A stretch of 47,889 nucleotides of DNA from Candidatus Limosilactobacillus intestinigallinarum (GTDB lineage: Bacteria > Bacillota > Bacilli > Lactobacillales > Lactobacillaceae): the NCBI GenBank assembly GCA_019117285.1, contig DXAA01000009.1:1-47889 (forward strand), written 5' to 3'. Below are positions 11,096-33,935 of the stretch, piece by piece. Positions within the stretch are counted from its first letter, which is position 1, and each line of letters begins with the position of its first letter. Position numbers and translations under genes: made by a program. The notes under the pieces were generated by a model, which worked only from the letters and a program-made list of their open reading frames with translations, made no database searches and was not told the origin of the DNA.

Positions 11096-11145
11096 AACTT
11101 GATCATTGATTATTGCGGGGCTCTTATGCTAAGATGGGTCTCGTT

Positions 11146-11248
11146 ATAAAGCAAATTCCCGATAGGATTCACGCTTGCCGTGAAGATGCCTTGTAACCGC
11201 AACTACCGAACTGTTGAAAAGTTTCACTAGAATATGGGGGAATTAGAT
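11146..11248 (+). ncRNA. S-MK (SAM-III) riboswitch of metK
   Basis: The leader carries the S-MK core: AATTCCCGATAGGAT (anti-SD arm), a small CACG/CGTG hairpin and GATGCCTTGTAACCG, then a ~35-base variable linker and GGGGGAATT, which contains the ribosome site and pairs with AATTCCC. In this class SAM binding stabilises the SD/anti-SD pairing and blocks translation of SAM synthetase. The metK ATG follows the GGGGG by 12 bases. This class is found in Lactobacillales, supporting the taxonomic reading. Confidence 0.93.
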
Positions 11249-11252
11249 TAAA

Positions 11253-12440
11253 ATGGCAGAAAAACACTTATTTACATCAGAATCAGTCTCTGAGGGGCAC
11301 CCGGACAAGATTGCTGACCAGATCAGCGACGCCATCCTGGATGCCATGCTCGAACAAGACCCGGATGCCCGGGTGGCGGTCGAGACGTCCGTAACGACCG
11401 GGCTGGTGCTGGTCTTCGGTGAGGTTTCCACCAAGGCCTACGTCAACATCCAGAAGATCGTGCGGGACACCATTCGCCAGATCGGCTACACCGACGGTAA
11501 GTACGGCTTCGACGCCGATAACTGTGCCGTCATCACCGCGATCGACGAACAGTCACCGGACATTGCCCAGGGGGTTGACGACTCCCTGGAGACCCGTGAA
11601 GGGGACGGTGACCCGCTCGACAAGATCGGGGCCGGTGACCAGGGACTGATGTTTGGCTACGCAACTGACGAGACGCCGGAATACATGCCACTGTCCCTGA
11701 TGCTGAGCCACAAGCTGATGCAAAAGATCGCCCGCCTGCGTAAGGACGGAACGATCCCATACCTGCGGCCAGATGCCAAGGCCGAGGTGACGGTCGAATA
11801 CGATGAAAACGACAAGCCGTTCCGGGTCGACACCGTCGTCTTAAGTACCCAACATGATCCGGAGGTTTCCCTGGATCAGATCAAGAAGGATGTCAAGGAA
11901 CAGGTCATCAAGGCGGTCATCCCGGCCGAATACCTGGACGATGACACCAAGTACTTCATCAACCCAACCGGCCGCTTCGTCATCGGTGGCCCCCAGGGGG
12001 ATGCCGGTTTGACCGGCCGGAAGATTATCGTCGACACCTATGGTGGGGCCGCTCACCACGGTGGTGGGGCCTTCTCCGGGAAGGATGCCACCAAGGTGGA
12101 CCGGTCTGCCAGTTACGCCGCCCGTTACATCGCCAAGAACCTGGTAGCGGCTGGCTATGCCAAGAAGCTGGAGATCCAGGTGGCCTACGCCATCGGGGTG
12201 GCCGAACCGGTCTCCATCTCCATCAACACCTACGGCACCGGGACCAAGAGCGACGACGAACTGATTGCCGCCGTCCGGAAGGCCTTTGACCTGCGGCCGG
12301 CCGGGATCATCAAGATGCTCGACCTCAAGCGGCCAATCTACAAGCAGACGGCGGCCTATGGTCACTTCGGTCGGACCGACATCGACCTGCCATGGGAACA
12401 CCTGGACAAGGTTGATGAACTGAAGCAGATTCTGGGCTAA
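11253..12440 (+). CDS. metK: S-adenosylmethionine synthetase
   Basis: The 395-residue cytosolic enzyme makes SAM from methionine and ATP. Visible family motifs are [17 protein letters not shown] near the N-terminus, [12 protein letters not shown] (~residue 126), the P-loop-like [16 protein letters not shown] (~residue 270), and an intact C-terminus. Length is normal for MetK. Translation is expected to be feedback-controlled by the S-MK riboswitch just upstream. It is followed by the leuS T-box leader with no clear terminator between. Confidence 0.97.
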
Positions 12441-12499
12441 TTGCCCGGGGCCCACCTTGCAATTGTGCGGTGAGCTTGTTAGAATGATTGATAAATATT

Positions 12500-12728
12500 T
12501 TGATCGTGATAGAAATAGTAGTCGGGATGCCGATCTTCAGAGATCCTGCGGGGCTGTGAGCAGGAGGCCGACACCGACGAACTCCTCTAGGTGATTGCCG
12601 CTGAAAGCCAGTAGGCGGTGACGTCTTCCGCGTTAAGGAACCAAGTGCTGTGGCTTCGGCCATAGAAAACGGGTGGTACCGCGGATTAAATTTCGTCTCG
12701 TAGAAGGAATTCTACGGGACTTTTTTAT
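12500..12728 (+). ncRNA. T-box leader of leuS
   Basis: The conserved T-box GGGTGGTACCGCGG lies at 12671-12684, and a terminator hairpin (gtctcgtagaa / ttctacgggac plus seven T) at 12695-12727. Upstream is the Stem I region with AGTA on the 5' side and GAA-CTC on the 3' side, closed below by TAGA/TCTA; CTC (12582-12584) is the Leu specifier. The TGGT bulge pairs with an ACCA tRNA end, which fits the A discriminator of the tRNA-Leu in this window. Uncharged tRNA-Leu should promote readthrough into leuS. The 5' limit is approximate. Confidence 0.93.
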
Positions 12729-21871: not shown

Positions 21872-21903
21872 AAGCCTCAGACGTTGGTCTGGGGCTTTTC
21901 TTT
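21872..21903 (+). terminator. Terminator of the L,D-transpeptidase gene
   Basis: The hairpin aagcctcagac / gtctggggctt (one wobble) with a GTTG loop is followed by TTCTTTT. The TnpB element begins eight bases further on, so the terminator tail doubles as the guide region of that element. Confidence 0.85.
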
Positions 21904-22080
21904 TGGGGCAGTGAACTACTCGGCCATCAATGACCGAGCTTCTGGGAACATGGCGTAGTATTTGGGATGTTACACCTGTATTCAGGAGACCCAACTTACG
22001 GAACGCCACTCTTTTACCATGGCTAGTTCCTAGCCCATGGCGTTTAATCCTTGATGCAAGATATTAATTGCCGCATTAAC
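21891..22080 (-). ncRNA. Candidate omega RNA (reRNA) of TnpB copy 1, with guide
   Basis: On the minus strand the 3' end of tnpB runs into a folded segment. It has an outer stem GGCGT (21952-21956) with ACGCC (22003-22007), a stem TTGGG (21962-21966) with CCCAA (21990-21994), and an inner CCTG/CAGG hairpin (21975-21986). The right-end hairpin CTCGG/CCGAG comes next, and the element ends in GTTCAC. By analogy with ISDra2 TnpB, the ~16-20 bases past the element end (21891-21910) would be the guide. The compensatory change in copy 2 supports the fold. Ends are approximate. Confidence 0.75.
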
Positions 22081-23357
22081 ATCCCGGTCGTGGTGGGTGC
22101 CGCAGTTTGGGCATGTCCATTCACGAATATTAAGTGGCTTAGGGCCACTATGGTAACCACAGTGGCTACAAATTTGACTAGTATAGTTTGGCTTAACCAC
22201 CACTAAGCGTTTACCATACCAGGCACACTTATATGCCAACATGATCCGAAACTGATACCAACTAGCGTTCGCAATGGCCCTAGCTAGACAATGGTTCTTC
22301 TGAAGATTTTTGGCTTTCAAATCTTCAATAACGATTACGTCATACTGCTTAACCAAGGCCGTCGTTAATTTATGCAAATAATCTTTTCTTTGGTTCGCTA
22401 TCTTGGTTTGATAGCGAGCCTTTTGTTGTCGCGCTCGTTGCCAGTTTTTATAATCATCTAATTCCGTCTTCACTGTTTTGTGGTTATGGTTCCATTGACG
22501 GACGGCAACCGTCGCTTGATGTTTCCGTTTGGCATACTTACTTTGCCAGGTAACTACCTGTTTCTCATACCACTTAGCGTTATAAGTTTCATACTTAATA
22601 CCATCAGAACTAACGGCTAGATCGGTGATCCCAACATCAATCCCGACCGTTTTCCCTGTTTTATTTAATTGCTTAGGAGGCTCAACCGCCACTTGTAATG
22701 ATAGATAGTAGCGCCCAGTTGGCGTAAAGCTAACTGTATAGCACTTAATTTTGCTATTAGCTAGTACTGCTGTTTTACTGGTCCGGATACTACCAAGCTT
22801 GGGCAATCTTACCCGCCGCTTAGCAAGTACCCGACAAACTGACCGCCCTGTATAAGCCTGCCGAATAGCATGACGCGATTTGAAGTGTGGATAGCCGCCC
22901 TGGTGCCTAAAGAGCATCTTAAAGGCCTGGGCGAGGTTATGATTAACCACGAGAAAACTAGTTGAATCACTAGTCTTAAGAAATGGATATTCCTGCTTGA
23001 GTCTTTTCAGGAGATAATTCATGCCATATTCATTGACAAAGTGACTGCTGGGATTGTTTTGATAACGTTCCTTCGCCATCGCTAGCATTTGGTTCCAAAC
23101 AAAGCGATCGTTACCAAACATCTGCCATAATTGTTCCCTCTGCTGAGCATTGGGATATAGACGGAGCTTAACGCCCTTGATAATCTGCACCATCTTCACC
23201 ACGATTCCTTTATCAGCGGTCGGTTAACATAGCTAATTAGTATTTGCGCACTAATCTTTCTGTTAAGCATATTATATCATATTGCAAAACATACGTTCGA
23301 GCAAAAGCCAAAAAATAGGCAATTCATCATGTCCTTAAAAGAACGTGTTTCCTTGCC
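21911..23357 (-). mobile_element. IS200/IS605-type element with tnpB only (copy 1)
   Basis: Limits come from comparison with the second copy at 32449-33896: shared sequence runs from gtgaactactcgg (right end) to ccttgcc (left end), about 1447 bases, with unrelated flanks. The left end folds into an imperfect palindrome (GGCAA outer stem, GTTCTT/AAGGAC inner stem, 23318-23357), and the right end has CTCGG/CCGAG (21919-21938), as in Y1-transposed elements. No tnpA is present, so it is an IS1341-like, tnpB-only element that would need a transposase in trans. Element polarity is minus: the left end is at high coordinates. Confidence 0.88.
22030..23202 (-). CDS. tnpB: TnpB RNA-guided endonuclease (intact copy)
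   Basis: A nuclease of up to 390 residues from the IS605 OrfB/TnpB family, ancestor of Cas12. The N-terminal domain begins VQIIKGVKLRLYPN. The split RuvC domain is complete: GIDVGITDLAVS (Asp189), [12 protein letters not shown] (Glu293) and HDRDVNAAINIL (Asp near 372-374). The zinc finger is [14 protein letters not shown] followed by CPNCG. All catalytic residues are present, so it is probably active. Start choices are GTG 23202, GTG 23199 and ATG 23193; AAAGGA upstream suits the latter two. Codon use is more AT-rich than its neighbours. Confidence 0.92.
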   Translation of the reverse strand: MVKMVQIIKGVKLRLYPNAQQREQLWQMFGNDRFVWNQMLAMAKERYQNNPSSHFVNEYGMNYLLKRLKQEYPFLKTSDSTSFLVVNHNLAQAFKMLFRHQGGYPHFKSRHAIRQAYTGRSVCRVLAKRRVRLPKLGSIRTSKTAVLANSKIKCYTVSFTPTGRYYLSLQVAVEPPKQLNKTGKTVGIDVGITDLAVSSDGIKYETYNAKWYEKQVVTWQSKYAKRKHQATVAVRQWNHNHKTVKTELDDYKNWQRARQQKARYQTKIANQRKDYLHKLTTALVKQYDVIVIEDLKAKNLQKNHCLARAIANASWYQFRIMLAYKCAWYGKRLVVVKPNYTSQICSHCGYHSGPKPLNIREWTCPNCGTHHDRDVNAAINILHQGLNAMG

Positions 23358-23379
23358 TGTTTTCAAAAATGCCATTCTC

Positions 23380-23422
23380 CCGTTTTCTCGTACTTAATTA
23401 TTAGGGACACGAAAACGGAGGG
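23380..23422 (+). promoter_or_regulatory. 5' hairpin touching the ribosome site of the GH73 gene
   Basis: A perfect eight-base repeat (CCGTTTTC at 23380-23387, GAAAACGG at 23411-23418) closes a 23-base loop, and its right arm includes the first two G of the GGAGGG ribosome site (23417-23422). If formed in the mRNA it would reduce access to the start. No ligand or regulator can be inferred. Confidence 0.45.
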
Positions 23423-23428
23423 ATGATA

Positions 23429-24544
23429 ATGAAGAAACCAATCTTAATCAGTGTGGTGGCTATCTTGGCGATAGCCAATCCGGGAGTGACCGTGACGGCT
23501 AGTTCGCTGGGCAGTCCGGTTCAGGAGGCCACCCACGCGATCATCAGCCAGCAGCCAGTCGACGAGCAGGCCGTCCAGGAGGAAGGTGCCGAATATGCGG
23601 CGGCGTTTTTAACCGCTTTCCGCCAGCTCAGTGTCGATTATCAGCAGGCCTTCGCACAGGGTGTGGCTGATGGACAACAGGGCCATCAACAGTCGATTAC
23701 GGGGGTCGTGGCCCAGACGGCCTACCAACGCGGGTGGGCACGTGGTCAGCAGTTGCGCAAGGTAGGTGGAGCAGATACCTCCCCGGCAGAGCCGCCGGTG
23801 TCCACCGATGATTCAGGAACGACGCCCCCTGATGAGGGGGTGGTCGATAGCCCGGCCCCGGACCAAGAAGAGTATGGGGCGGTGGCGCCGACGAACGCGC
23901 AGCGGGCCTTCATCAACCGTCTGGCGCCGGCCGCCCGGCAGGTGGGGGCCGCGTATGACCTGTACCCGTCGGTGATCATCGCGCAAGCCGCCCTGGAGAG
24001 CAATTGGGGGACCAGCCGGCTCGGCCGGGCGCCCTTTCATAATTTATTTGGGGTGAAGGGTTACTTTGCCGGGCAGACCACCAGGCAGTCGACCAGTGAA
24101 TACCATGGGGGCCGTCAGCTCATGGTAGTCGACAACTTCCGCCGCTACCAGAGTGACTACGCAGCCCTACGTGACTATGCCGAGACTCTCCAGGCACCGC
24201 TCTACCGTGGCGTCCATCGACAGGCGGCAGCCACCTATCGCCAGGCTACCCATGCCCTGCAGGGACGGTATGCGACTGATCCGCAATATGAGCAGAAACT
24301 CAACCGCCTGATTGACGGTTACCGGTTGACGCGCTATGATCGCCGACCGCATCACGCGGAGACAGGCCACCAGGCACCGGTCAGGGTAAAGCTGGCCACC
24401 GTGCAGCCATCCCGGCGGCCACACCCGGTGAAATCAGGGCACCAGCACCAGGACCACCACCGCTTGGCGCCGGTCATCTCGGTCATCAGTGGCCTGGGAT
24501 CGGCGGGATTGGTGGAGCTTGGGCGGCGCTTGTTTTTAAAATGA
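23429..24544 (+). CDS. Exported GH73 N-acetylglucosaminidase (autolysin-type)
   Basis: The protein has about 371 residues. A signal peptide spans residues ~1-24 (ending VTVTAS). A ~100-residue Ala/Gln-rich helical region with ADGQQGHQQ is followed by a Pro/Asp/Thr-rich linker. The GH73 domain (~150-300) has FINRLAPAARQVGAAYDLYP, the catalytic ALESNWGTSRLG and NLFGVKGYF. The tail is His-rich (HQHQDHH) and ends in a hydrophobic stretch plus RRLFLK, which could be a C-terminal membrane anchor; no LPxTG is seen. The second ATG (23429) is better spaced from GGAGGG than 23423. Confidence 0.87.
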   Translation: MKKPILISVVAILAIANPGVTVTASSLGSPVQEATHAIISQQPVDEQAVQEEGAEYAAAFLTAFRQLSVDYQQAFAQGVADGQQGHQQSITGVVAQTAYQRGWARGQQLRKVGGADTSPAEPPVSTDDSGTTPPDEGVVDSPAPDQEEYGAVAPTNAQRAFINRLAPAARQVGAAYDLYPSVIIAQAALESNWGTSRLGRAPFHNLFGVKGYFAGQTTRQSTSEYHGGRQLMVVDNFRRYQSDYAALRDYAETLQAPLYRGVHRQAAATYRQATHALQGRYATDPQYEQKLNRLIDGYRLTRYDRRPHHAETGHQAPVRVKLATVQPSRRPHPVKSGHQHQDHHRLAPVISVISGLGSAGLVELGRRLFLK

Positions 24545-24573
24545 AAAAAGACCGAGAAGTTAATCTCAGTCCT
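24544..24573 (-). terminator. Terminator of the deoxynucleoside kinase gene
   Basis: On the minus strand, GACTGAGA pairs with TCTCGGTC through one U-G wobble and is followed by six T. On the plus strand that pair is an A-C mismatch, so the hairpin favours the minus-strand gene. Confidence 0.75.
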
Positions 24574-24576
24574 TGC

Positions 24577-25209
24577 TTAGCGGATGGAAGCCAACCGGTC
24601 ATCGATCATGCCGAGGACGGTTTCCACGTTCTTTGGATCTTCCAGGTCGTAGGTTTCCAGGTCAATCTTCATCTTGGGACTAGCATCGTAGTCCTTGTAC
24701 CATTGCTTGTAGGCACTCCACATCTTGTAGTAGTAGTCCTTGAGTTCGGGATTATCGTCGATCTGTTCGTAGTCGCGACCCCGCTTCTTGATCCGGTAGA
24801 GGATCGTTTCAAAATCGGTTTCGGAATAAACCATGAGATCTGGTGCCTTCTTTGGCAGCTGCTGGAGGTCCTTCATCATGTTATCGAGCAGGTTGAGGTA
24901 GACCTCGAGCTCGGTATCCGTGATGTTCCCCTCAGCGTTGTTCTCACGGGTGAACAGGGCGTCCTCGTAGATGGAGCGGTCGAGGACGTTGTTGTCATCG
25001 GACAGCGCCTGCTTGATCATTGAGAACCGCTTGTTCAAGAAGTAAATCTGAAGCAGGAAACCGTACTGCTTCGGATTCTTATAGTACAGTGGCAAGACAG
25101 GATTGTCGCCGACTGGTTCAAAAAATGCTTTAGTGTTGAGGTGTTCGGCGATCTTGCCCGTCAGGGTGGTTTTGCCGACACCAATCATTCCTGCTGTAAT
25201 TATCACCAT
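24577..25209 (-). CDS. Deoxynucleoside kinase (dAK/dGK type)
   Basis: The 210-residue salvage enzyme phosphorylates deoxynucleosides. The P-loop GMIGVGKTTLTGKIA is at the N-terminus; FEPVGDNPVLPLYYKNP and the DRSIYEDALF (DRS) motif identify the deoxyribonucleoside kinase family found in lactobacilli as deoxyadenosine/deoxyguanosine kinases. RIKKRGRDYEQ is the lid region. One gene is seen where some lactobacilli have a tandem heteromer pair. AGAGGGG precedes the start. Base specificity cannot be told from sequence alone. Confidence 0.92.
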   Translation of the reverse strand: MVIITAGMIGVGKTTLTGKIAEHLNTKAFFEPVGDNPVLPLYYKNPKQYGFLLQIYFLNKRFSMIKQALSDDNNVLDRSIYEDALFTRENNAEGNITDTELEVYLNLLDNMMKDLQQLPKKAPDLMVYSETDFETILYRIKKRGRDYEQIDDNPELKDYYYKMWSAYKQWYKDYDASPKMKIDLETYDLEDPKNVETVLGMIDDRLASIR

Positions 25210-25239
25210 GATGGCCCCTCTTTACTTTTAATAACACAA

Positions 25240-25309
25240 AAACCATCTTACTACAAAATGTTGTGGATTCCTATGGTAAATTTTGCTAGATTTAGTAGGA
25301 AGATGGTTT
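25240..25309. repeat. Inverted repeat between the kinase gene and the 203-aa gene
   Basis: The arms AAACCATCTT (25240-25249) and AAGATGGTTT (25300-25309) are perfect, and a further ACTA/TAGT pairs after a three-base bulge. The 50-base interior is AT-rich. It lies in a divergent intergenic region, where it could be an operator, a leader hairpin or the remnant of a small mobile repeat. Confidence 0.5.
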
Positions 25310-25336
25310 ATCGAATCGTTTAAAATTAATTAAAAT

Positions 25337-25365
25337 CCGGTCGGACCGGCTTCGCAAGCGGTCAC
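25337..25365. promoter_or_regulatory. Overlapping GC palindromes before the 203-aa gene
   Basis: CCGGTCGGACCGG (25337-25349) is a perfect 13-base palindrome and overlaps a second hairpin (GACCGGCTT / AAGCGGTC around CGC). The two folds are mutually exclusive because they share GACCGG. No T run follows, so this is not a terminator. A role in controlling the gene at 25394 is only a guess. Confidence 0.4.
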
Positions 25366-25393
25366 GAGGGAAAGATAAAAATGAGGGGAAGAT

Positions 25394-26005
25394 ATGATGG
25401 AACAGATGACAGCGCGCATGGTTCGCGAACAATTAGCTTTAGCCAAACAGGACGGTTACCTGATCGAGGTCCATAACCTACCGGACGATGACTATTTTAA
25501 CGTTGGCTTCGTGGTGGGAATCGATCCGACCTTTTGCCTGTTGATTAGCATCGACTGGGACGGGAAGATCAACGGCCTGATCGTTATCCGAATCAGCAGC
25601 ATTCAGGCGGTGGTCAAGGGAACCGACTACCTGACGACGGTCTCTGAAAAAACCAAGGTGGCGCATCGCTACCACTACTTTGACGTCTGGCAGGTGCAGA
25701 AGTTCCTCGACGACCATCCGGCCATGACCAGTGGCAACCTGTTGGGGAACGCCCTTAAGGACTCCTACGCGCATCACCTGCCAGTCGTGGTGGGGACGCA
25801 AAAATACAAGGGTAATGACGACTTTGTCGGGAAAATCGTCCAGCTTGACCACATCCAGCTGGTCCTTCACTACTTTAATGAGCACGACCTGTCGTCACTG
25901 TGGGAGTACCGGGTCCTCCTCGCCCAAGTGGACTATCTGCGTTTTCGGGGAACCCAGATGGCTACCAGCCAGCAGATCTTTCAGGATATTTTCCCGGAAG
26001 AATAA
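25394..26005 (+). CDS. Hypothetical protein, 203 aa
   Basis: I do not recognise this family. The soluble acidic protein begins MMEQMTARMVREQLALAKQD. Two similar-looking halves are visible: residues ~20-75 (beta-rich, VGFVVGIDPTFCLLISIDWDG, then RISSIQAVVKG) and ~125-190 (KYKGNDDFVGKIVQLDHIQL to REYR-type VLLAQVDYLRFRG), each reading like a small Sm/SH3-type barrel with a glycine turn. GGGGAAG lies close to tandem ATG codons at 25394/25397. It is 60 bases upstream of rbsR, with no terminator seen between, so co-transcription is possible. Confidence 0.7.
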   Translation: MMEQMTARMVREQLALAKQDGYLIEVHNLPDDDYFNVGFVVGIDPTFCLLISIDWDGKINGLIVIRISSIQAVVKGTDYLTTVSEKTKVAHRYHYFDVWQVQKFLDDHPAMTSGNLLGNALKDSYAHHLPVVVGTQKYKGNDDFVGKIVQLDHIQLVLHYFNEHDLSSLWEYRVLLAQVDYLRFRGTQMATSQQIFQDIFPEE

Positions 26006-26065
26006 TTGCAACGCCTCCCGAATTAATATAAAGTTAAAGTAGTAAACAAAGATGGTGGGGTCAAC

Positions 26066-27088
26066 ATGAGTAAAAAAGTAACAATTCGCGACATTGCCCG
26101 GCTCGCTGGCGTCTCGGTAACGACGGTGTCACAGATTCTGAACGGCAAAGGGGAGCGCTTTAGTAAGAGGACGCAGGATAAGATCTACAAGCTGCGGGAC
26201 GAATATGGCTACGTGCCCGACTTCAATGCTCGCAGCCTGATCCTGCGTCGGTCATCGAGCATGATTGGGGTCCTGGTACCCAATATTTCCAGCCCTTTCT
26301 TTGGGACCTTTGTTGAGGGGGTCCAGCAGGTTGCCCAGCACGAGCGGATGATCCCACTGATCTTCAGTGCCAACCGGGATGCCGAGTTGGAACGGAACTA
26401 CCTCTCCCAGATGCTGGAGCGATCGATTGACGGGTTGATCATCGCTAGTGCGACCATGACCACTGAGACGATCGATAAGCTCATTGGGGCCCGGGACGTT
26501 CCCTACATCCTCTTTGACCAGAACTACGCCCAAGAGGGAACCCGGGTGCTGACCGATGACTACCACGGTGGGGAACTAGCGGCCCAACATTTAGCCGATC
26601 TTGGTCACCGTAAGATTGCGATTCTGGAGCCTAACGAGCTGAGTGAAAACTTCACCCAGCGGCTGACCGGCTTTCTGGATCGGTTGAATAAGAATGGCAT
26701 CCCCCTCGACGTGGATCATTATGTGTTCAAGGCCCCGTTGAGCCGCCAGGGTGGTTATAATATTGCTGAGGCGGTTAGCCAAAGTGACGCTACCGCGGCC
26801 TTTGCCGGCAACGATGACATGGCAATTGGCCTGATGCGGGGACTGAGCGAGCGGGGCGTCAAGGTGCCAGACCAAATTTCTGTGATCGGATATGATAACA
26901 TCTACCTCGATGAGTATGTTTCCCCACAGCTGACGACGATTAGCCAGCCGATCACGGATCTAGGGATTGGGGCCGCCAAGATGTTGTTGAATAAGATTCA
27001 CTCTGACCAGGAGCAAGAACAGATTCAGCGCTTCCCGGTTAAACTGATTCAACGGGAGAGTACGACGAAGGTCCACCAGTCACGATAA
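26066..27088 (+). CDS. rbsR: LacI-family regulator, probable ribose repressor RbsR
   Basis: The 340-residue repressor has an N-terminal LacI helix-turn-helix (VTIRDIARLAGVSVTTVSQILNG, residues 5-27) and hinge (NARSLILRRSSSMIGVLVPN). The periplasmic-binding-protein-like sensor domain contains FDQNYAQEGTRVLTDDYHGG and GYDNIYLDEYVSPQLTTISQP. Assignment to ribose rests on the ribokinase gene 15 bases downstream. GGTGGGG precedes the ATG. No ribose transporter or rbsD is in the window, so uptake must be encoded elsewhere. Confidence 0.88.
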   Translation: MSKKVTIRDIARLAGVSVTTVSQILNGKGERFSKRTQDKIYKLRDEYGYVPDFNARSLILRRSSSMIGVLVPNISSPFFGTFVEGVQQVAQHERMIPLIFSANRDAELERNYLSQMLERSIDGLIIASATMTTETIDKLIGARDVPYILFDQNYAQEGTRVLTDDYHGGELAAQHLADLGHRKIAILEPNELSENFTQRLTGFLDRLNKNGIPLDVDHYVFKAPLSRQGGYNIAEAVSQSDATAAFAGNDDMAIGLMRGLSERGVKVPDQISVIGYDNIYLDEYVSPQLTTISQPITDLGIGAAKMLLNKIHSDQEQEQIQRFPVKLIQRESTTKVHQSR

Positions 27089-27103
27089 AAGGAGCTGTTA
27101 AGA

Positions 27104-28024
27104 ATGAGTAACAAGGTAACGGTTGTTGGAAGTTTGAATGTTGACACAACGCTGCGGATCAAGCGGATGCCGCTGCCGGGCGAGACCCTGGCGGCTGCCG
27201 ACAAGACCAGTGCTGCCGGCGGCAAGGGTGCCAACCAGGCGGTCGCCGCAGCCCGGTCTGGAGCTCAAACGGCCTTTGTTGGCCAGGTCGGGACGGATAA
27301 CGGCGGTGAGATGATGATCAAGGACCTGCAGGACAATGGTATCGATACGACCGGTATTCGGGAAAACGACCAGGTCGGAACCGGCTCAGCGGCCATCCTG
27401 CTGGACGAGGACGGTCAGAACAGCATCCTGGTCTACGGGGGTGCCAACCAGCAGCTGAGTGTTGATGACGTTGCCGCTGCCAAACAGCAGATCGCAGCGG
27501 CGGACTTCGTGATTGCTCAGTTTGAGACGCCTCAGGAAGCGACCCTAAAGGCCTTCCAGATCGCCAAGGAGAATGGGGTCAAGACGATCCTGAACCCAGC
27601 GCCGGCCCACCAGATCGATCCGGCCCTCCTAAAGCTGACTGACCTGATCATTCCAAACGAGACGGAGAGTGCCTCCCTGACCGGAATCATTGTCACCGAT
27701 GAGACCTCGATGTTGATGTCAGCAGCCAAATATGCCCAGATGGGGGTTCGCAACCTGATCATCACGGTCGGGGCCAAGGGGGCCTTCTACTGCACCCAGG
27801 ACGGTTACAACTTCGTGCCGGCCTTCAAGGTCAACGCCGTGGATACCACCGCAGCCGGGGACACCTTTATTGGTTCCCTGTCTTCACAGCTGAAGCCAGA
27901 TATGAGCAATATCGAAAAGGCCTTGGTTTACGCACAGCGGGCTAGCTCCCTGGCGGTTCAAAAGATGGGGGCTCTGCCATCCATCCCGACGCATGATGAG
28001 ATCATCGCCGCCAGTCAGCAGTAA
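27104..28024 (+). CDS. rbsK: Ribokinase
   Basis: The 306-residue PfkB-family kinase phosphorylates D-ribose to ribose-5-phosphate for the pentose phosphate/phosphoketolase route. It has the N-terminal VVGSLNVDTTLRIKRMPLPGE, the first PfkB signature AGGKGANQAVAAARSG, the GAKGAFYC segment, and the catalytic VDTTAAGDTFIGSL with its Asp. AAAGGAG precedes the ATG. It forms an operon with rbsR and ends at a terminator; the usual rbsD and permease genes do not follow. Confidence 0.95.
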   Translation: MSNKVTVVGSLNVDTTLRIKRMPLPGETLAAADKTSAAGGKGANQAVAAARSGAQTAFVGQVGTDNGGEMMIKDLQDNGIDTTGIRENDQVGTGSAAILLDEDGQNSILVYGGANQQLSVDDVAAAKQQIAAADFVIAQFETPQEATLKAFQIAKENGVKTILNPAPAHQIDPALLKLTDLIIPNETESASLTGIIVTDETSMLMSAAKYAQMGVRNLIITVGAKGAFYCTQDGYNFVPAFKVNAVDTTAAGDTFIGSLSSQLKPDMSNIEKALVYAQRASSLAVQKMGALPSIPTHDEIIAASQQ

Positions 28025-28049
28025 TTAAGCGAATTATCTGAATGAATTC

Positions 28050-28083
28050 GGGATCACAGCCGTTTGAGTTGTGATCCCTTTTC
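28050..28083 (+). terminator. Terminator of rbsRK
   Basis: The perfect repeat gggatcaca / tgtgatccc around an 11-base loop is followed by TTTT. It lies 25 bases after the rbsK stop. Confidence 0.85.
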
Positions 28084-28122
28084 AAGTCTAGTAAACTAAA
28101 TGGAAAAAACGAGGTAAGGCAA

Positions 28123-28350
28123 TTGAAAGCAGAATACCTGATTAAAATAGTTCTTCCCACCTTTATCATCTTCGCGGTCCTGGTCTGGTTGACGACTGCC
28201 CACATCATTTCGGGCTGGCTGATGTACCTCCTCTGGGTCCTGGGCTTTGTCTGCGCCAACCTGTGGGTAACCCGGGTGACAGCCAAACGGAGCTACCACC
28301 GGCTGAAGAAGCAGCGGGAGGAGGAAGCCAAGCAGCGTAAAAATGAGTAA
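28123..28350 (+). CDS. Small two-helix membrane protein, 75 aa
   Basis: Two hydrophobic helices (VLPTFIIFAVLVWLTTAHII and WLMYLLWVLGFVCANLWV) are followed by a highly charged tail (KRSYHRLKKQREEEAKQRKNE). The start codon is TTG, chosen because GAGGTAAGG lies just upstream. The last eight bases overlap the start of the CPBP gene (ATGAGTAA), so the two are translationally coupled. I do not recognise the family; the coupling suggests it works with the protease-like neighbour. Confidence 0.75.
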   Translation: MKAEYLIKIVLPTFIIFAVLVWLTTAHIISGWLMYLLWVLGFVCANLWVTRVTAKRSYHRLKKQREEEAKQRKNE

Positions 28351-29014
28351 ACTTACCAATCTTTTCAACCTTTTTTACCGGGCCGGCATCATGCTGATTC
28401 TCTTCTTCTTGATTCAGCTGCCGCCGGTGGCGATCAACATCGCCAATCGTTATCCCAACAACCTCGGCTTAACGCTCCTGTTGTTGGCCATCTTCTTGAT
28501 GATCTTTGCCTTCATCATTGGCTGGGCCCGGCGCCTTTATCGGCAGTATGACCAGTTGGGACAGGGGCACCTGCGGCCGGGATTAGTGGTGGGGGGATAT
28601 CTCACCCTGCTGATCGGGACGATGTTTTTCGGTCAGTTGAACGTGCTGCTCTTTCACCAGACCCAGACCGCCAATAACGCTGCCGTTGCGCAGATGCTCA
28701 ATCATAACCAGCTGGCCACCATTGCCTTTGTCATCTCGGCCTGCACATTGACGCCGGTGGCTGAGGAGCTGATCTTTCGGGGGGTGCTGACCAACCTCTT
28801 TTTTAAGCCGGATTCGTTCTGGCCCAAGGTGGTCTTGTCGGGGGTAGTCTTCTCCTGCGCCCACCTCAGCACCAACGTGGTTAGCTTCTGTACCTACGGC
28901 TTCATGGGGATGGTCCTGGCCTATGTTTACCGTCGCTCCGGTTCCCTGAAGAACTCAATCGCCCTCCACGCCCTTAACAATATCGTGGCGATGGCGATGC
29001 TCCTGAAAATTTAA
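28343..29014 (+). CDS. CPBP-family intramembrane metalloprotease
   Basis: The 223-residue protein of the CAAX protease/bacteriocin-processing (Abi) family has about seven membrane helices. The three family motifs are present: EELIFRG (EExxxR), FSCAHL (FxxxH) and HALNNIV (HxxxN), so it is likely an active membrane glutamic/metal protease. In lactobacilli such proteins often accompany bacteriocin loci as immunity or maturation factors, but no bacteriocin gene is visible here. It is coupled to the small membrane protein upstream. Confidence 0.88.
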   Translation: MSKLTNLFNLFYRAGIMLILFFLIQLPPVAINIANRYPNNLGLTLLLLAIFLMIFAFIIGWARRLYRQYDQLGQGHLRPGLVVGGYLTLLIGTMFFGQLNVLLFHQTQTANNAAVAQMLNHNQLATIAFVISACTLTPVAEELIFRGVLTNLFFKPDSFWPKVVLSGVVFSCAHLSTNVVSFCTYGFMGMVLAYVYRRSGSLKNSIALHALNNIVAMAMLLKI

Positions 29015-29022
29015 AATAGGCC

Positions 29023-29051
29023 TTGTAATCGCTTCCATGAGATGGTATATT
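29023..29051 (+). promoter_or_regulatory. Strong extended -10 promoter for the candidate RNA
   Basis: The -35 box TTGTAA (29023-29028) is 17 bases from the -10 box TATATT (29046-29051), and TG stands at the extended -10 position (29043-29044). The predicted start is near 29058. It lies just after the CPBP stop codon and reads into a region without a convincing gene. Confidence 0.65.
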
Positions 29052-29057
29052 AAAGAC

Positions 29058-29364
29058 GTGGAAGGAAAGAAGAAAAAGAGGACATGATTCGTCATGGCAC
29101 CTCCCACTAGTTCAAAGCGCCGAAGGAAGTTATGGAGTAGGCTAGAAGCAACGTAAGTGTGACCAGAAGCATCGGTTAAAGTTTTGAGTTCGTTTAAGTT
29201 CTGTAATAAGGTCACCAGGGTGCACTTTGGCAGTGGTTATATAAATGCGACTTTGCGGAAGTTTAGAATCAAAGAAAATGGTAATGTAATTAGTTCCAGT
29301 GCAAAGTGGCAAGATTCCTTCCGTGAGTTATTGAAGGACACAGGCAATGCGCCTGTGTCCTTTT
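29058..29364 (+). ncRNA. Candidate structured non-coding RNA, about 305 nt, unassigned
   Basis: Between a strong promoter and an intrinsic terminator lies a segment with nested long-range pairing. GGAAGGAA (29060-29067) can pair with TTCCTTCC (29315-29322), GTGACC (29159-29164) with GGTCAC (29210-29215), and CACTTTG (29223-29229) with CAAAGTG (29302-29308). CATGA-TTCG-TCATG (29083-29096) forms a UUCG-loop hairpin near the 5' end. I find no match in memory to RNase P (no GAGGAAAGTCC), tmRNA or SRP RNA; 6S RNA is usually shorter but not excluded. It may be free or the leader of the downstream YbjQ gene. Confidence 0.5.
29336..29364 (+). terminator. Terminator of the candidate RNA
   Basis: The perfect ten-base repeat ggacacaggc / gcctgtgtcc around a 5-base loop is followed by TTTTCTGTT. 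The YbjQ gene starts 28 bases later behind its own TATAAT (29369-29374, with TG at the extended position). Confidence 0.85.
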
Positions 29365-29391
29365 CTGTTATAATGTTCCTGAGGTGATTAA

Positions 29392-29679
29392 ATGTTTCTA
29401 TCAACGGAAGCCTTTCCCCAGGCCCACCGGATTCTGGGGATCGTCAACGCGACGAGCCACCTAATGTTGCCGAGCGAAGAAATCGACGCCTTTGAATCGA
29501 TGGATCAGCTGTTCAGCGATGTGGAGGCCAAGCTCAAGTCGCGGGCGGAGAGTAAGGGTGCCGATGGGGTGGTGAATGTCCGCTTTACTACGAACGTCGC
29601 CAACGTCCAGGTGGCACCAAAGTTCCTGGTGGTAACTGGTTATGGAACCATGATCCAATTGATCAATAAAAAAAGATGA
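29392..29679 (+). CDS. YbjQ-family (DUF74) protein
   Basis: The 95-residue protein is of the YbjQ/UPF0145 family, which forms pentamers and is described as heavy-metal-binding-like, though no clear function is established. The family core is visible: ILGIVNATSHLM, a helix with LFSDVEAKLKSRAESKGADG, then VVNVRF and the C-terminal VVTGYGTMIQL. GAGGTG precedes the ATG. It is a single gene between the candidate RNA and a terminator shared with the K+ channel gene. Confidence 0.8.
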   Translation: MFLSTEAFPQAHRILGIVNATSHLMLPSEEIDAFESMDQLFSDVEAKLKSRAESKGADGVVNVRFTTNVANVQVAPKFLVVTGYGTMIQLINKKR

Positions 29680-29712
29680 AGTGACGCTGCTGAAAGCATC
29701 ACTTCATCTTTT
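29671..29712. terminator. Shared terminator whose right arm encodes the channel C-terminus
   Basis: A perfect 14-base repeat (aaaagatgaagtga at 29671-29684, tcacttcatctttt at 29699-29712) closes a 14-base loop. It ends ybjQ on the plus strand. On the minus strand its first arm contains the last four codons and stop of the K+ channel gene, so coding and terminator functions overlap. Confidence 0.85.
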
Positions 29713-30427
29713 CTTTTTGGTTGGCCTTGAGTTCCCGGATTTCAGCGGCGAGTTCCCGGTTGGTCTTCTCGACCTGGTCGAGTTTGTCGAGAATCTTTTG
29801 CATTCGGTCATCCGCGTGGTCGTGAATGAAGAGGTTAGTGAGGGAACTGGTCAACATCCCGACAATCCCAATCCCAACGATCATCAGGAAGATTGCGGCA
29901 AGTTTACCGATGAAGGTGTGTGGGGAGATGTCCCCGTAACCGATCGTGGTTGCCGTGGCGATGGCCCACCACAGTGACCGGCCGTAGGGAACGTGTTCAC
30001 TTACCGAATACATCGAGGCGGCAATGACTAGAATGCAGATACTGGTGTAGATGATGTAGATCAAACCGTTGGTGTGGAGGAGGCGATTCAGTTTCCCGGT
30101 TAGTCCGATCAGCCGCAGCAGACGGAAAATTTGGAAGAACCGCGCCAGCCGACCTAGCCGGAAGATGTTGAATGCTGGCGAGACGGGGATGATCGAGAGC
30201 AGGTCAAAAATGTTGTCTTTGAAGAATTTCTTTTTATCCTTGGCGAGTGCCAGCCGACCAAAGTAGTCAATCGTAAAGACGACCAGGAGGACGTTGTTGA
30301 GTAACTCCGGGTAGCCGGTGTTCAGGTTGATGACGCCACCGAAGTCCAAGATAATCAGGAAGATCGAGACAAGGGCGAGGACGGCCATCACAATGTCATA
30401 TAGCTTGGTTTTGTTCAAATTATTCAC
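29699..30427 (-). CDS. Voltage-gated-type potassium channel, six helices
   Basis: The 242-residue channel has S1-S4 in residues ~10-110, including an S4-like helix with regularly spaced Arg (FRLGRLARFFQIFRLLRLIG). The pore loop carries the selectivity filter TATTIGYGD, followed by S6 with GIGIVGMLTSSL. The C-terminus (ILDKLDQVEKTNRELAAEIRELK) should form a tetrameric coiled coil, as in KvLm/NaChBac-type channels. The start codon is GTG and the ribosome site is weak (AAAAG), so expression may be low. It is monocistronic. Confidence 0.9.
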   Translation of the reverse strand: MNNLNKTKLYDIVMAVLALVSIFLIILDFGGVINLNTGYPELLNNVLLVVFTIDYFGRLALAKDKKKFFKDNIFDLLSIIPVSPAFNIFRLGRLARFFQIFRLLRLIGLTGKLNRLLHTNGLIYIIYTSICILVIAASMYSVSEHVPYGRSLWWAIATATTIGYGDISPHTFIGKLAAIFLMIVGIGIVGMLTSSLTNLFIHDHADDRMQKILDKLDQVEKTNRELAAEIRELKANQKEKMK

Positions 30428-30673
30428 GATCTTTTCATTGTTTTTATATCAATTATATCAGATCCGGGTGGGGAACTCGGGGGAAGTTAGTTAAAACAAA
30501 AGGCGTCAGGGTTAGGCGTTTGATTTGCAGAGCATCCCTATACCGTTACGCCTTAAGTTAGTAGTTAATTTATCCGTTGAGAGTTACTAGTTTGGCGAGG
30601 CAACGCTTATAGATCATATGTATTTCAGCACATATTAGCATTCTAAACGTTTAAATATTGATCAATGCTTCAG
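30428..30673. other. AT-rich intergenic region, no gene seen
   Basis: This stretch marks the left edge of the AT-rich accessory region. I see no ORF, tRNA or convincing terminator. A piece at 30638-30652 (ttagcattctaaacg) resembles the left half of CIRCE but has no matching right half. Confidence 0.5.
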
Positions 30674-31045
30674 TTATGCCAAAAATTCAATAGGCTGCAC
30701 CCCTTGCTCTTTACGCTTCGCATTGACGATTTCACGCAATTGAATGGCTACCTGTGGGGCATTCTTGATGTAGGGGAGGGTAACACTTTCCCCAGTGTCA
30801 TAGGTCACGAAGATCCGCCCACCGCTAATCAAATTGACTGTGGATGAGATATTACGCACTCGGTACAGATCAATCATCGTGTGTTGCTGGTTGATCACCC
30901 CATGCTGGTACTCTAACGTGCTGTCATGGAGGTGATATTGAACCATCGCAATCGTGATGGCCACCCAGATGCTTGGAAACCACCCAAGGACCCAACTCCA
31001 CAGCAGTGATGGAACCAGGCCACGCCAGTCCTTCTCAAATGTCAT
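30674..31045 (-). CDS. Membrane protein with PH-like (YdbS/bPH2) domain
   Basis: The 123-residue protein has one hydrophobic N-terminal segment (LLWSWVLGWFPSIWVAITIAMV), then a beta-rich domain: STLEYQHGVINQQHTMIDLYRVRNI. This is the pattern of bacterial PH-like YdbS proteins, where a sequence such as GxxxxxxxxIPLxRIxxV follows the membrane segment. The function is unknown. GGAGG precedes the ATG. It lies 16 bases downstream of the lipoprotein gene on the same strand, so the two form an operon. Confidence 0.7.
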   Translation of the reverse strand: MTFEKDWRGLVPSLLWSWVLGWFPSIWVAITIAMVQYHLHDSTLEYQHGVINQQHTMIDLYRVRNISSTVNLISGGRIFVTYDTGESVTLPYIKNAPQVAIQLREIVNAKRKEQGVQPIEFLA

Positions 31046-31061
31046 AATGGTTGCCTCCGCG

Positions 31062-31574
31062 TTATTGCTGATTAGGATTGGTTACGTTTACTTTGAATTT
31101 AGCGGGCTGCTGAGTTGATACTAATGGTGCAAAATGCAGTTCAACTTCGCCAAGTTTATCAATTCCAAATCCGGTTACTACGTCTGCCTCTTTACCAGCG
31201 GCCACCGAGTCAAGAGTGGTGCCGTTAATAGGGTAGCTTTTTAGCTTAGTGTTGTCCGGACCATAAACCGCTAAATCAGTTCCAATTGGTAAGGCTTGAT
31301 TGGAATTATTCTTAACGTGGTAAGTAACCTTAATAACGTGTTGCGGGTTATCATCAGCGAATTCGTTCCGTTCATCAGTTACTTCTACCGAATTTAGTGT
31401 GTAGGTAATCTGACCAGCCTTTACTGTGTCACCAACTTTATGAAATTCGGCATGCTTTTTAGCACTACTTGAGTGGTTAGTAGAAGTACTCTTATTTGAA
31501 GTCGTTCCACAAGCAGATAGTGACAAAGCAAGTAAGACGGCTGTGCTAGTAATAATGATCTTTGAAGCCTTCAT
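31062..31574 (-). CDS. DUF4352 lipoprotein
   Basis: The 170-residue exported lipoprotein has a signal peptide with lipobox LSLSACG (Cys ~22), a Ser/Thr/Lys-rich spacer, and an Ig-like DUF4352 domain (HKVGDTVKAGQITYTLNSVE to the C-terminus). Such proteins sit on the outer membrane face; their role is not established. The ATG at 31574 has GGAAGGAAAATAATT in front; the longer frame to 31613 has no ribosome site. It leads the two-gene minus-strand operon with the PH-like protein. Confidence 0.85.
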   Translation of the reverse strand: MKASKIIITSTAVLLALSLSACGTTSNKSTSTNHSSSAKKHAEFHKVGDTVKAGQITYTLNSVEVTDERNEFADDNPQHVIKVTYHVKNNSNQALPIGTDLAVYGPDNTKLKSYPINGTTLDSVAAGKEADVVTGFGIDKLGEVELHFAPLVSTQQPAKFKVNVTNPNQQ

Positions 31575-31867
31575 AATTATTTTCCTTCCTGTATATTCGC
31601 CTTCCTTATTCATTGTTAGTAACTTAATTTTACCGTGTCGATCTGTTGCTGGATAGCTTGACTAGACTGAATTAGTAATTGTTTATTCATCTTTAGAATT
31701 ATCTAAAAATAGCTAAGCTAAAATATTCAGGCGGGAGCTAACCGTTAATCATTAGAAACTAGTATTTCGGCAAGGTGTCAGAACAAGATTTAGGAAGTTA
31801 TTGCTGATTAGTACCCGAATAGGTGCATAATAGAACTGTAAGTGTTTAATATTGGGGGGATTTCGGA

Positions 31868-32398
31868 ATGAAAAGGATAGGTCTATTTTGTGTCACCGTC
31901 CTAGCAGGGCTTAGTCTTGCCGGGTGTAGTAATCTGGCGTCATAATCGCACAAGACGACTAGTAGTAGCTCATCTACTAAGGTAGTTAAACACCATAGGA
32001 ACCATAAGAAAGCAGCCCAAGAGAGCAATAAGGCCACCCAGTCCTCGTCTGATAGTAGCAGTCAGGCACCGGCCAATAGTAATGCTACTAGTCAACAGGG
32101 CAATGGCAATCAGCAAGCTACCGCTCAATCTAACGACGGTGGTCAGCAACAAGGTCAGGATAATCAGCAAGGCAGTATTAATAATGCAGATCAAGCACTA
32201 GCTGCTGCTCGTGCTAAGTATGGCGATGGTAACGGCAATTACCACTGGACAATAATGTATGATGCAGACACCGGTCAGCCAGCCCGTAACGCTGATGGTT
32301 CTTATTTCGTTAAAGCTATTGACCCGACTCAAGGGACAATGACGGGTACCGCTCAAAGCGTCAACGTTTACCCAGATGGTTCAATGACTAATAACTAA
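31868..32398 (+). pseudogene. Lipoprotein gene broken by an in-frame TAA
   Basis: Reading from ATG 31868 gives a signal peptide and lipobox (FCVTVLAGLSLAGCSNLAS), then TAA at 31943-31945 (codon 26). The same frame then stays open for 150 codons to TAA 32396-32398, through a Ser/Gln/Asn-rich linker and a C-terminal segment (YGDGNGNYHWTIMYDADTGQ). The coherent lipoprotein architecture across the stop shows a single recent nonsense change, probably CAA to TAA. A GGGGG site precedes the ATG. Readthrough or a sequence error are alternatives. The family of the C-terminal part is not recognised. Confidence 0.75.
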
Positions 32399-32428
32399 AC
32401 ATCAATCGAGGGGATGGGCCTAATAATG

Positions 32429-32620
32429 GTTCGTCCTTTTGCGTTCAAGTGAACTACTCGGCCATCAATGACCGAGCTTCTGGGAACATGGCGTAGTATT
32501 TAGGATATTACACCTGTATTCAGGATACCTAACTTACAGAACGCCACTATCTTACCATGGCTAGTCCCTAGCCAACGGCCTTTAATCCTTGATGCAGAAT
32601 ATTAACTGCCGCATTAATAT
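32429..32620 (-). ncRNA. Candidate omega RNA of copy 2, with a different guide
   Basis: The fold of copy 1 is preserved: outer GGCGT/ACGCC, inner CCTG/CAGG, and the middle stem TTAGG (32500-32504) with CCTAA (32528-32532). In copy 1 that stem is TTGGG/CCCAA, so a G-C pair has become A-U with both sides changed. The putative guide is the 20 bases at 32429-32448 read on the minus strand, unrelated to the guide of copy 1. Ends are approximate. Confidence 0.7.
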
Positions 32621-33896
32621 CCCGGTCGTGATGGGTACCACAACATGGACATGTCCGTTCACGAATGTTGAGTGGTTTAGGACCACTATGGTAACCACAG
32701 TGACTACAAATCTGACTAGTGTAATTTGGTTTAACTACCACCAAACGTTTACCATACCAAGCACACTTATATGTCAACATGGTCCGAAACTGGTACCAGC
32801 TGGCATTCGCAATGGCCTTAGCTAGACAATGATTTTTCTGAAGATTCTTGGCTTTCAAATCTTCAATGACAATTACGTCGTACTGCCTAACCAAGGTCGT
32901 TGTCAATTTATGCAAATAATCTTTTCTTTAGTTTACTATCTTGGCTTGGTAGCGGGCCTTCTGTTGTCGCGCTCGTTGCCAGTTCTGGTACTCACTTAGT
33001 TCTTTCTTTACGGTCTTATGATTATGATTCCATTGACGGACGGCAACCATCGCTTGACGTTTCCGTTTGGCATACTTACTTTGCCACTTTGTTGCTTGTT
33101 TCTCAGCCCATCTAGCGTTAAAGGTGCCGTACTTAATCCCATCAGAACTAACGGCTAGATTGGTGAGCCCCACATCAATCCCGACCGCTTTGCCTGTCTT
33201 GTTTAAGTGTTCAGGAGCCTCAACTGCAACTTGTAGTGATAAATAGTAGCGTCCAGTTGGCGTAAGGCAAACCGTATAGCACTTGATTTTGCCATTAGCT
33301 AATCGGGTTGTTTTGCTGGTTCGAATGCTGCCCAGCTTCGGTAACTTAACTCGTCGCTTTGCAAGCACTCGACAAACTGACCGCCCCGTGTAAGCCTGCC
33401 GAATAGTACGACGCGATTTGAAGCGTGGATAGTCGCCCTGATGCCTAAATAACATCTTAAAGGCTTGGGCGAGGTTATGATTAACCACGAGAAAACTGGT
33501 TGAATCACTAGTTCTAAGGAATGGATATTCCTGCTTAAGTCTCTTCAGGAGATAATTCATACCGTATTCATTGACAAAGTGACTACTAGGATTGTTTTGA
33601 TAACGTTCCTTCGCCATTGCCAACATCTGATTCCAAATAAAGCGATCGTTGCCAAACATTTGTCGCAATTGTTCTCTCTGCTGAGCATTGGGATATAGAC
33701 GGAGCTTAACGCCCTTGATAATCTGCACCATCTTCACCACGATTCCCTTATTAGCGGACGGTTAACATAGCTAATTAGTATTTGCGCACTAATCTTTCTG
33801 TTAAGCATATTATATCATATTGTAAAACGTACGTTCGGGTAAAAATTCAAAAAGTAGGCAATTCATCACGTCCTTAAAAGAACGTGTTTCCTTGCC
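32449..33896 (-). mobile_element. IS200/IS605-type element with tnpB only (copy 2, defective)
   Basis: About 1448 bases collinear with the element at 21911-23357, roughly nine-tenths identical by eye, with the same ends (gtgaactactcgg to ccttgcc). Flanks differ, so this is an independent insertion rather than a segmental duplication. Its tnpB is interrupted by one stop codon, while both subterminal palindromes remain. It lies in the AT-rich stretch between a broken lipoprotein gene and tRNA-Leu. Confidence 0.88.
32568..33740 (-). pseudogene. tnpB: tnpB with a single nonsense mutation (copy 2)
   Basis: The frame is the same length as intact copy 1 (391 codons) but has TAA at 32928-32930 where copy 1 has CAA (codon 271, in the segment KIVN[12 protein letters not shown]). 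The truncated product would retain the first RuvC Asp (GIDVGLTNLAVS) but lose the Glu motif, the last Asp and the zinc finger, so it cannot cut. Downstream of the stop all motifs are still intact, which means the change is recent. The two open pieces should not be annotated as separate genes. Confidence 0.9.
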
Positions 33897-33909
33897 CAAT
33901 TTCAAAAAG

Positions 33910-33935
33910 CCCGCTATCCTAAATCGGATAGCGGG
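33910..33935 (-). terminator. Terminator-like hairpin beside the left end of copy 2
   Basis: A perfect ten-base repeat (cccgctatcc / ggatagcggg) with a 6-base loop is followed on the minus strand by CTTTTTG. No gene is evident on the minus strand between it and the tRNA-Leu terminator (33936-34100 looks empty), so it may be a leftover from a gene lost here. The TnpB element starts 13 bases away. Confidence 0.65.

Follow-up and report, generated by a model that had tools for sequence, protein, structure and literature searches.

The closest described relative of the elements considered here is the TnpB protein of ISDra2 from Deinococcus radiodurans together with its omega RNA, also called right-end element RNA (reRNA) (PMC8612924, PMC10097598). 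In the ISDra2 complex, nucleotides -5U to -3C form a pseudoknot with -103A to -105G, the catalytic residues of TnpB are D191, E278, and D361, and an engineered omega RNA without stem 3b, named Trim2, has been described (PMC10097598). The window analyzed here, a stretch of 47,889 nucleotides from Candidatus Limosilactobacillus intestinigallinarum, contains two elements of the IS200/IS605 type (copies 1 and 2) that, unlike ISDra2, carry tnpB without tnpA. Such tnpB-only elements are known as the IS1341 type, and the two copies resemble them in having a left end (LE) and a right end (RE) without tnpA, in occurring as several diverged copies per genome, and in keeping the target on the left. Sequence comparison establishes that a conserved structured RNA is encoded at the 3' end of tnpB and runs exactly to the end of the element. 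We consider it highly probable (roughly 0.93) that the right ends of both copies encode an omega RNA of the ISDra2 type, which by homology would be transcribed and bound by TnpB as its guide RNA. This is a known type of guide RNA, and the value of the finding lies in the natural covariation for the ISDra2-type fold.

The fold has four stems, a pseudoknot, and a GUUC beside the guide in common with ISDra2, and the proteins share the RuvC triad. The pseudoknot joins GUUC at -6 to -3 (-5U to -3C in ISDra2) with the stem 1 loop, which reads GGAAC or GGGAC, and stem 2 pairs CCA at -35 to -33 with UGG, where ISDra2 uses -35 to -32. The tetraloop at -20 to -17 is UUUA in ISDra2 and UUGA in the window copies, and in another clade UUUA is present but shifted by one base. 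In the minimum-energy fold, UUC is paired with GAA at -32 to -30 instead of forming the pseudoknot, and this repeats the misleading UUC/GAA pairing that the pseudoknot replaced in the ISDra2 structure (PMC10097598). The orientation on the minus strand is also consistent with the ISDra2 omega RNA, as is a guide that begins immediately beyond the element (PMC10097598). Stem 3, in contrast, is longer here than in ISDra2. TnpB here stops where the C-terminal domain of ISDra2 TnpB begins, so that the coding region and stem 1 overlap by only about 6 nt; the stop codon of tnpB, TAG (22032-22030), falls inside stem 1, and the first 12 nt of the modelled copy 1 scaffold overlap tnpB. In related elements from two species (L015:310-420 and L158:1560-1670; L numbers denote loci), 20 nt of stem 3b have been lost, which makes them natural counterparts of Trim2; the remainder of L015 still folds.

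An earlier note on this DNA had aligned the right ends of the two copies and described an outer stem GGCGT/ACGCC and an inner stem CCTG/CAGG in both, together with a middle stem that reads TTGGG (21962-21966) with CCCAA (21990-21994) in copy 1 and TTAGG (32500-32504) with CCTAA (32528-32532) in copy 2, so that one pair has switched from G-C to A-U on both sides. All of these stems are present, and among the 10 differences in 131 right-end bases exactly one named pair has changed in this way; a pair in the pseudoknot changed on one side only, from A-U to G-U, and no pair is broken in one copy only. The note regarded this as direct evidence for selection on an RNA fold, which is an overstatement. 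When ten changes are placed at random, at least one compensated pair arises with a probability of 0.098, and the probability that no pair is broken is 0.007, so a compensated pair is expected by chance about once in ten and covariation between two copies alone is weak and only suggestive. The structured omega RNA that the note proposed at these right ends is supported by strong evidence from 53 distinct right ends and by the match to the ISDra2 fold, and the fold includes the pseudoknot and two stems that the note did not have.

These 53 right ends (of 54 distinct ones, the truncated L162 being left out) were aligned with MAFFT without structure (alignment A1), and 40 pairs were named from the stems of the earlier note, the consensus fold of A1, and the ISDra2 structure (PMC10097598). 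Of 2108 cells, 93.9% are paired, compared to 31.0 to 49.2% when the partners are slid by 1 to 3 columns. An alignment of many copies had been set beforehand as the refutation test, and it shows further covariation, with changes on both sides in 14 of the 40 pairs (113 cells). Stem 1, stem 4, and the outer and apical stems have such changes, as do the short helix between stems 3a and 3b and other pairs of the middle stem; in stem 3a they affect four of the seven pairs, and in stem 1 a U-A pair is replaced by C-G in 6 of the 53 rows. The middle stem is 100% paired, and the pair singled out in the two-copy comparison (columns 52-88) is A-U in 48, G-C in 3, and the intermediate G-U in 2 of the 53 rows. 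None of 500 shuffles reached the observed values on four measures, and 25 of 500 did so for further pair types. When substitutions were redistributed on a tree (1000 runs), the observed pairing was never reached for the whole structure, stem 3a, or stem 4, and it was reached in 4 runs for the apical stem and in 9 for the middle stem.

More distant relatives were found from the RNA alone. Two covariance models were used: R1, in which stems 1, 2, and 4 stand one column off, served for the searches of the order and of the genome of the window and for the bit scores of the window copies, and R2, which has the corrected register, was used to rescore the 19 order-level loci. The search with R1 gave matches in 15 of 198 genomes of the order, including the genome of the window and one genome of the same genus. 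From 11 other genera, 19 loci (L226-L244) were fetched, and every one of them matches R2, with 36 to 106 bits. Two of them, L239 and L244, reach a contig edge; at 16 of the 17 testable loci a tnpB homologue ends no more than about 40 nt from where the RNA starts (35 to 69% identity by segment, two homologues being cut by contig ends and two lying in several pieces), and at the remaining locus, L228, no tnpB was found. In the 22 distinct further matches (alignment A2, fitted to the model and including two weak matches, one from the genome of the window and one from a same-genus genome), both partners have changed in 32 of 36 pairs, and none of 500 shuffles reached the observed values on any of the five measures. 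The middle pair of stem 2 is A-U in 12 and G-C in 10 of the 22 rows. At L237 and L238 (genomes G121 and G034), two sites with different right flanks, the RE ends in GTCCCC and the loop of stem 1 reads GGGAC; the pseudoknot has thus changed on both sides to a compensatory G-C form in which five standard pairs are possible. In L061 the replacement of U-A by C-G in stem 1 turns the tnpB stop codon TAG into CAG, extending the open reading frame (ORF) by seven codons to a TAA, and L068 has the same replacement.

Several results weigh against this interpretation. In the tree-based test the 3-bp helix (49 of 1000 runs) and stem 1 (75 of 1000) are marginal, and the pseudoknot (580 of 1000) and stem 2 (1000 of 1000) do not beat the null in A1, because they are nearly invariant there. 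A pairwise test resembling R-scape gave a single significant pair among 9870 column pairs at E<0.05, although that pair (38-98) lies within the structure, as do five of the top seven. Pair 57-76 is unpaired in 40 of 51 rows of A1, and in stem 4 the clades of A1 are out of register with one another. In A2, stem 3 is often gapped, and the middle stem has letters in only 7 to 8 of the 22 rows. The loop of stem 1 is only 5 nt long, much shorter than in ISDra2, and at gathering scores the omega RNA had no match in Rfam. Stem 4 is also the single-stranded DNA hairpin expected for TnpA, so pairing there is not specific to RNA.

This last point leads to an alternative in which the inverted repeats are kept as single-stranded DNA hairpins for the Y1 transposase TnpA and not as RNA. 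Stem 4 coincides with the RE hairpin, and an element in the same genome that does carry tnpA (G000:C12) shares with copy 1 only its two ends, 43 nt at the start of the LE (95% identity) and 33 nt at the close of the RE (91%). This shared end contains neither stems 1, 2, and 3 nor the 5' side of the pseudoknot, yet these parts are kept or covary; their positions agree with the ISDra2 omega RNA (PMC10097598), and in L061 the paired change persisted even at the cost of the tnpB stop codon. We therefore regard an explanation by DNA hairpins alone as very improbable. The fold might also be a cis-acting element of the tnpB mRNA, such as an attenuator, a terminator, or a stability element, since it overlaps the stop codon at the 3' end of tnpB. 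Against this, it extends exactly to the end of the RE, its last bases fit the ISDra2 pseudoknot, neither window copy has a T-run after the fold, and the fold occurs without tnpB in another genus, so that such a role in place of a guide scaffold is hard to believe. The features of the two elements in the window are listed in Table 1.

Table 1. Features of the two elements in the window (omega RNA parts are given for copy 1 unless stated; R1, covariance model; TAM, transposon-associated motif)
Feature	Position	Strand	Remarks
Element copy 1	21911..23364	-	tnpB-only IS200/IS605 type; LE GAAAACAGGCAAGG, RE GTTCAC; LE start +/- 1-2 bases
Element copy 2	32449..33903	-	tnpB-only IS200/IS605 type
tnpB copy 1	22030..23202	-	390 aa; D189, E293, D374 align with the ISDra2 RuvC triad
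tnpB copy 2, pseudogene	32568..33740	-	nonsense codon 32930-32928 (codon 271)
Omega RNA scaffold copy 1	21911..22041	-	131 nt modelled (-131 to -1), 5' limit is that of the model; R1 144.0 bits
Omega RNA scaffold copy 2	32449..32579	-	fold intact; R1 147.7 bits; fold z-score -4.57
Stem 1	22021..22035	-	22035-22031 with 22025-22021; encloses loop GGAAC; 100% of cells paired
Pseudoknot, 5' side	22026..22029	-	pairs with 21916-21913 (GUUC beside guide); 99.5% of cells paired
Stem 2, 5' side (UGG)	22017..22019	-	pairs with CCA 21945-21943; invariant in A1
Stem 3a	21950..22009	-	22009-22003 with 21956-21950; outer GGCGT/ACGCC; 98.1% paired
3-bp helix (3a/3b)	21999-21997 with 21960-21958	-	listed with stem 3a
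Stem 3b	21962..21994	-	middle 21994-21990 with 21966-21962; apical 21986-21983 with 21978-21975
Stem 4 / RE hairpin	21919..21938	-	tetraloop 21930-21927 (-20 to -17, as in ISDra2)
Predicted 16-nt guide copy 1	21895..21910	-	flanking DNA; predicted from RE boundary and ISDra2 guide length
Predicted 16-nt guide copy 2	32433..32448	-	predicted as for copy 1
TTTTT target at LE of copy 1	23365..23369	-	presumed TAM
Terminator-like hairpin and TTTTT directly before LE of copy 2	33904..33935	-	hairpin 33935-33910

The protein of copy 1 is homologous to ISDra2 TnpB over nearly its full length (phmmer E value of 4.9e-55 to 8bf8), its triad residues in Table 1 aligning with D191, E278, and D361, and it matches PF01385, PF07282, and PF12323 above the cut-off (OrfB_IS605 and Cas12f-like TNB domains) as well as the guided_TnpB model NF040570 (343.9 bits; cut-off 100); against the stricter "exception" model NF038281 it scores 348.1, below the cut-off of 425. 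The nonsense codon of copy 2 precedes the second and third catalytic residues, and the D/E/D triad is incomplete there. Of the 11 full-length copies of the same genome that were parsed, 7 encode the three catalytic motifs in an ORF of 390 aa or more, another 2 encode them in a shorter ORF, and in the last 2, copy 2 being one, at least one motif is missing; ORF starts are approximate in this count. That the copies are a domesticated RNA-guided repressor of the TldR-like kind might be read from those that lost an intact TnpB and kept the RNA, but the catalytic triad of copy 1 is intact and the many copies with different flanks in one genome look mobile, which makes this most improbable. A related tnpB gene, annotated as a transposase, is present in Lactobacillus phage LP65 (AY682195.1, 34806-36021; 66.5% DNA identity over 83% of the query).

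The ends of the elements were set by comparison of copies. Across 56 distinct element-plus-flank sequences, the RE reads GTTCAC or GTTCAT apart from a few one-base variants. Outside it the DNA diverges among copies, orthologous sites excepted; the right ends were therefore put at 21911 and 32449. Diverged empty sites, which have the T-run and both flanks without the element, were found in genome G061 for L166 and in G010 and G002 for L005, and at both loci the insertion lies 3' of a retained target without duplication. From these empty sites of other copies, the left start is placed at the GAAAACG-like bases immediately after the T-run, with an uncertainty of 1 to 2 bases. An intact empty site for L006 was not found, the only matches being the genome of the window itself (G000) and a split match in G032. 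G000, which is 66.87% complete, contains 12 near-full-length copies including copy 1, the other 11 being 84 to 88% identical to it, and partial copies besides; R1 gave 14 strong omega RNA matches and 1 weak one there. The right-end region is present in 18 of 50 Limosilactobacillus genomes, G000 included; 8 of 100 BLAST rows, each matching less than about 100 nt, were left out. Upstream of tnpB, positions 23203-23290 and 33741-33830 of the window are nearly identical between the two copies, which differ by about 12% overall, and in both this stretch contains the motif TATGATATAAT; it may be a conserved promoter or leader.

By homology with ISDra2, the RNA would be made from the tnpB strand and bound by TnpB, with about 16 nt of host DNA just beyond the RE as the guide. 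Once the single-stranded element had been excised, TnpB would cut the emptied donor site, in which the T-run is followed by the guide sequence, and repair would as a result restore the element. As copy 2 has no complete TnpB, its RNA could act only with the TnpB of other copies. A Y1 TnpA encoded by another element whose ends are similar would probably provide mobility in trans. The tnpA-bearing element mentioned above (L183, G000:C12:66200-69400) has a complete tnpA (158 aa) and a distant tnpB (456 aa) between such ends and stands behind a strong terminator-like hairpin, and it is a candidate for the autonomous partner. Two further partial TnpA matches both lie at contig ends.

The more surprising part of the analysis, which lies outside the guide RNA finding, is a preference for terminators. 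The target here is a T-run, whereas it is TTGAT in ISDra2, and the preference for T-tracts behind terminator-like hairpins also sets these elements apart from other tnpB-only IS200/IS605 elements. Among 36 distinct sites, which include elements of other content that share the same left end, 31 have TTTTT in the five bases before the presumed left start, and 21 have a hairpin of -12 kcal/mol or lower directly before the T-run. Such a hairpin precedes 45 of 600 control T5 runs taken anywhere in the fetched DNA (drawn from 2920; P = 1.6e-13) and 123 of 800 outside ORFs of at least 100 aa (drawn from 1131; P = 1.3e-8), controls and test sites coming from the same fetched loci and thus not being fully independent. 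These stricter sets supersede an earlier, looser count of hairpins (24 of 44 versus 32 of 150). Of the two window copies, only copy 2 has a terminator-like hairpin before its LE. A second sample was drawn from other genomes of the family, mostly of other genera; a hairpin of -12 kcal/mol or lower stands at 9 of its 28 left ends, and at 5 of 24 after removal of four sites already in the first sample, so that the effect is weaker there. We tentatively suggest, at somewhat short of even chances, that this lineage homes to intrinsic terminators, that the T-tract adjacent to the hairpin serves as both transposase target and TAM, that the guide reads the sequence after the terminator, and that relatives in another genus have shrunk to the guide RNA alone. 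If so, the element would land harmlessly behind the stop signal of a gene. The pattern may reflect either a preference of the transposase or the survival of harmless insertions.

Candidates for such reduced relatives come from G124, a genome of another genus of the order, in which three short elements (L228/L274, L278, and L279; about 330 nt, estimated by eye) have a right end resembling the omega RNA. Two of the three are recognized by R2, with 64 and 43 bits, and no tnpB was found in them by tblastn with the copy 1 protein. They share an upstream part with a palindrome like CCTCAGTTTTAACTGAGG, and one of them is flanked by ORFs read as pfkA and pyk. These look like mobile elements that consist of a guide RNA only. 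In a limited search of the open-licence literature we found no report of the present findings for covariation or for lactobacilli, of a preference of IS200/IS605 elements for terminators, or of guide-only elements. Elsewhere in the window, a T-box leader was noted at 12491-12703 and a SAM-III riboswitch at 11139-11255.

The natural sequences of these elements, when compared, support the fold of the ISDra2 omega RNA, its pseudoknot and stem 2 included, and they show that pairing in the RNA has been maintained at the expense of a stop codon. A covariance model built from them finds guide RNAs of TnpB with no need of protein data. The preference for terminators suggests a way in which these elements could persist in many copies at little cost to their hosts, and it predicts, in a testable way, the TAM and the choice of target.

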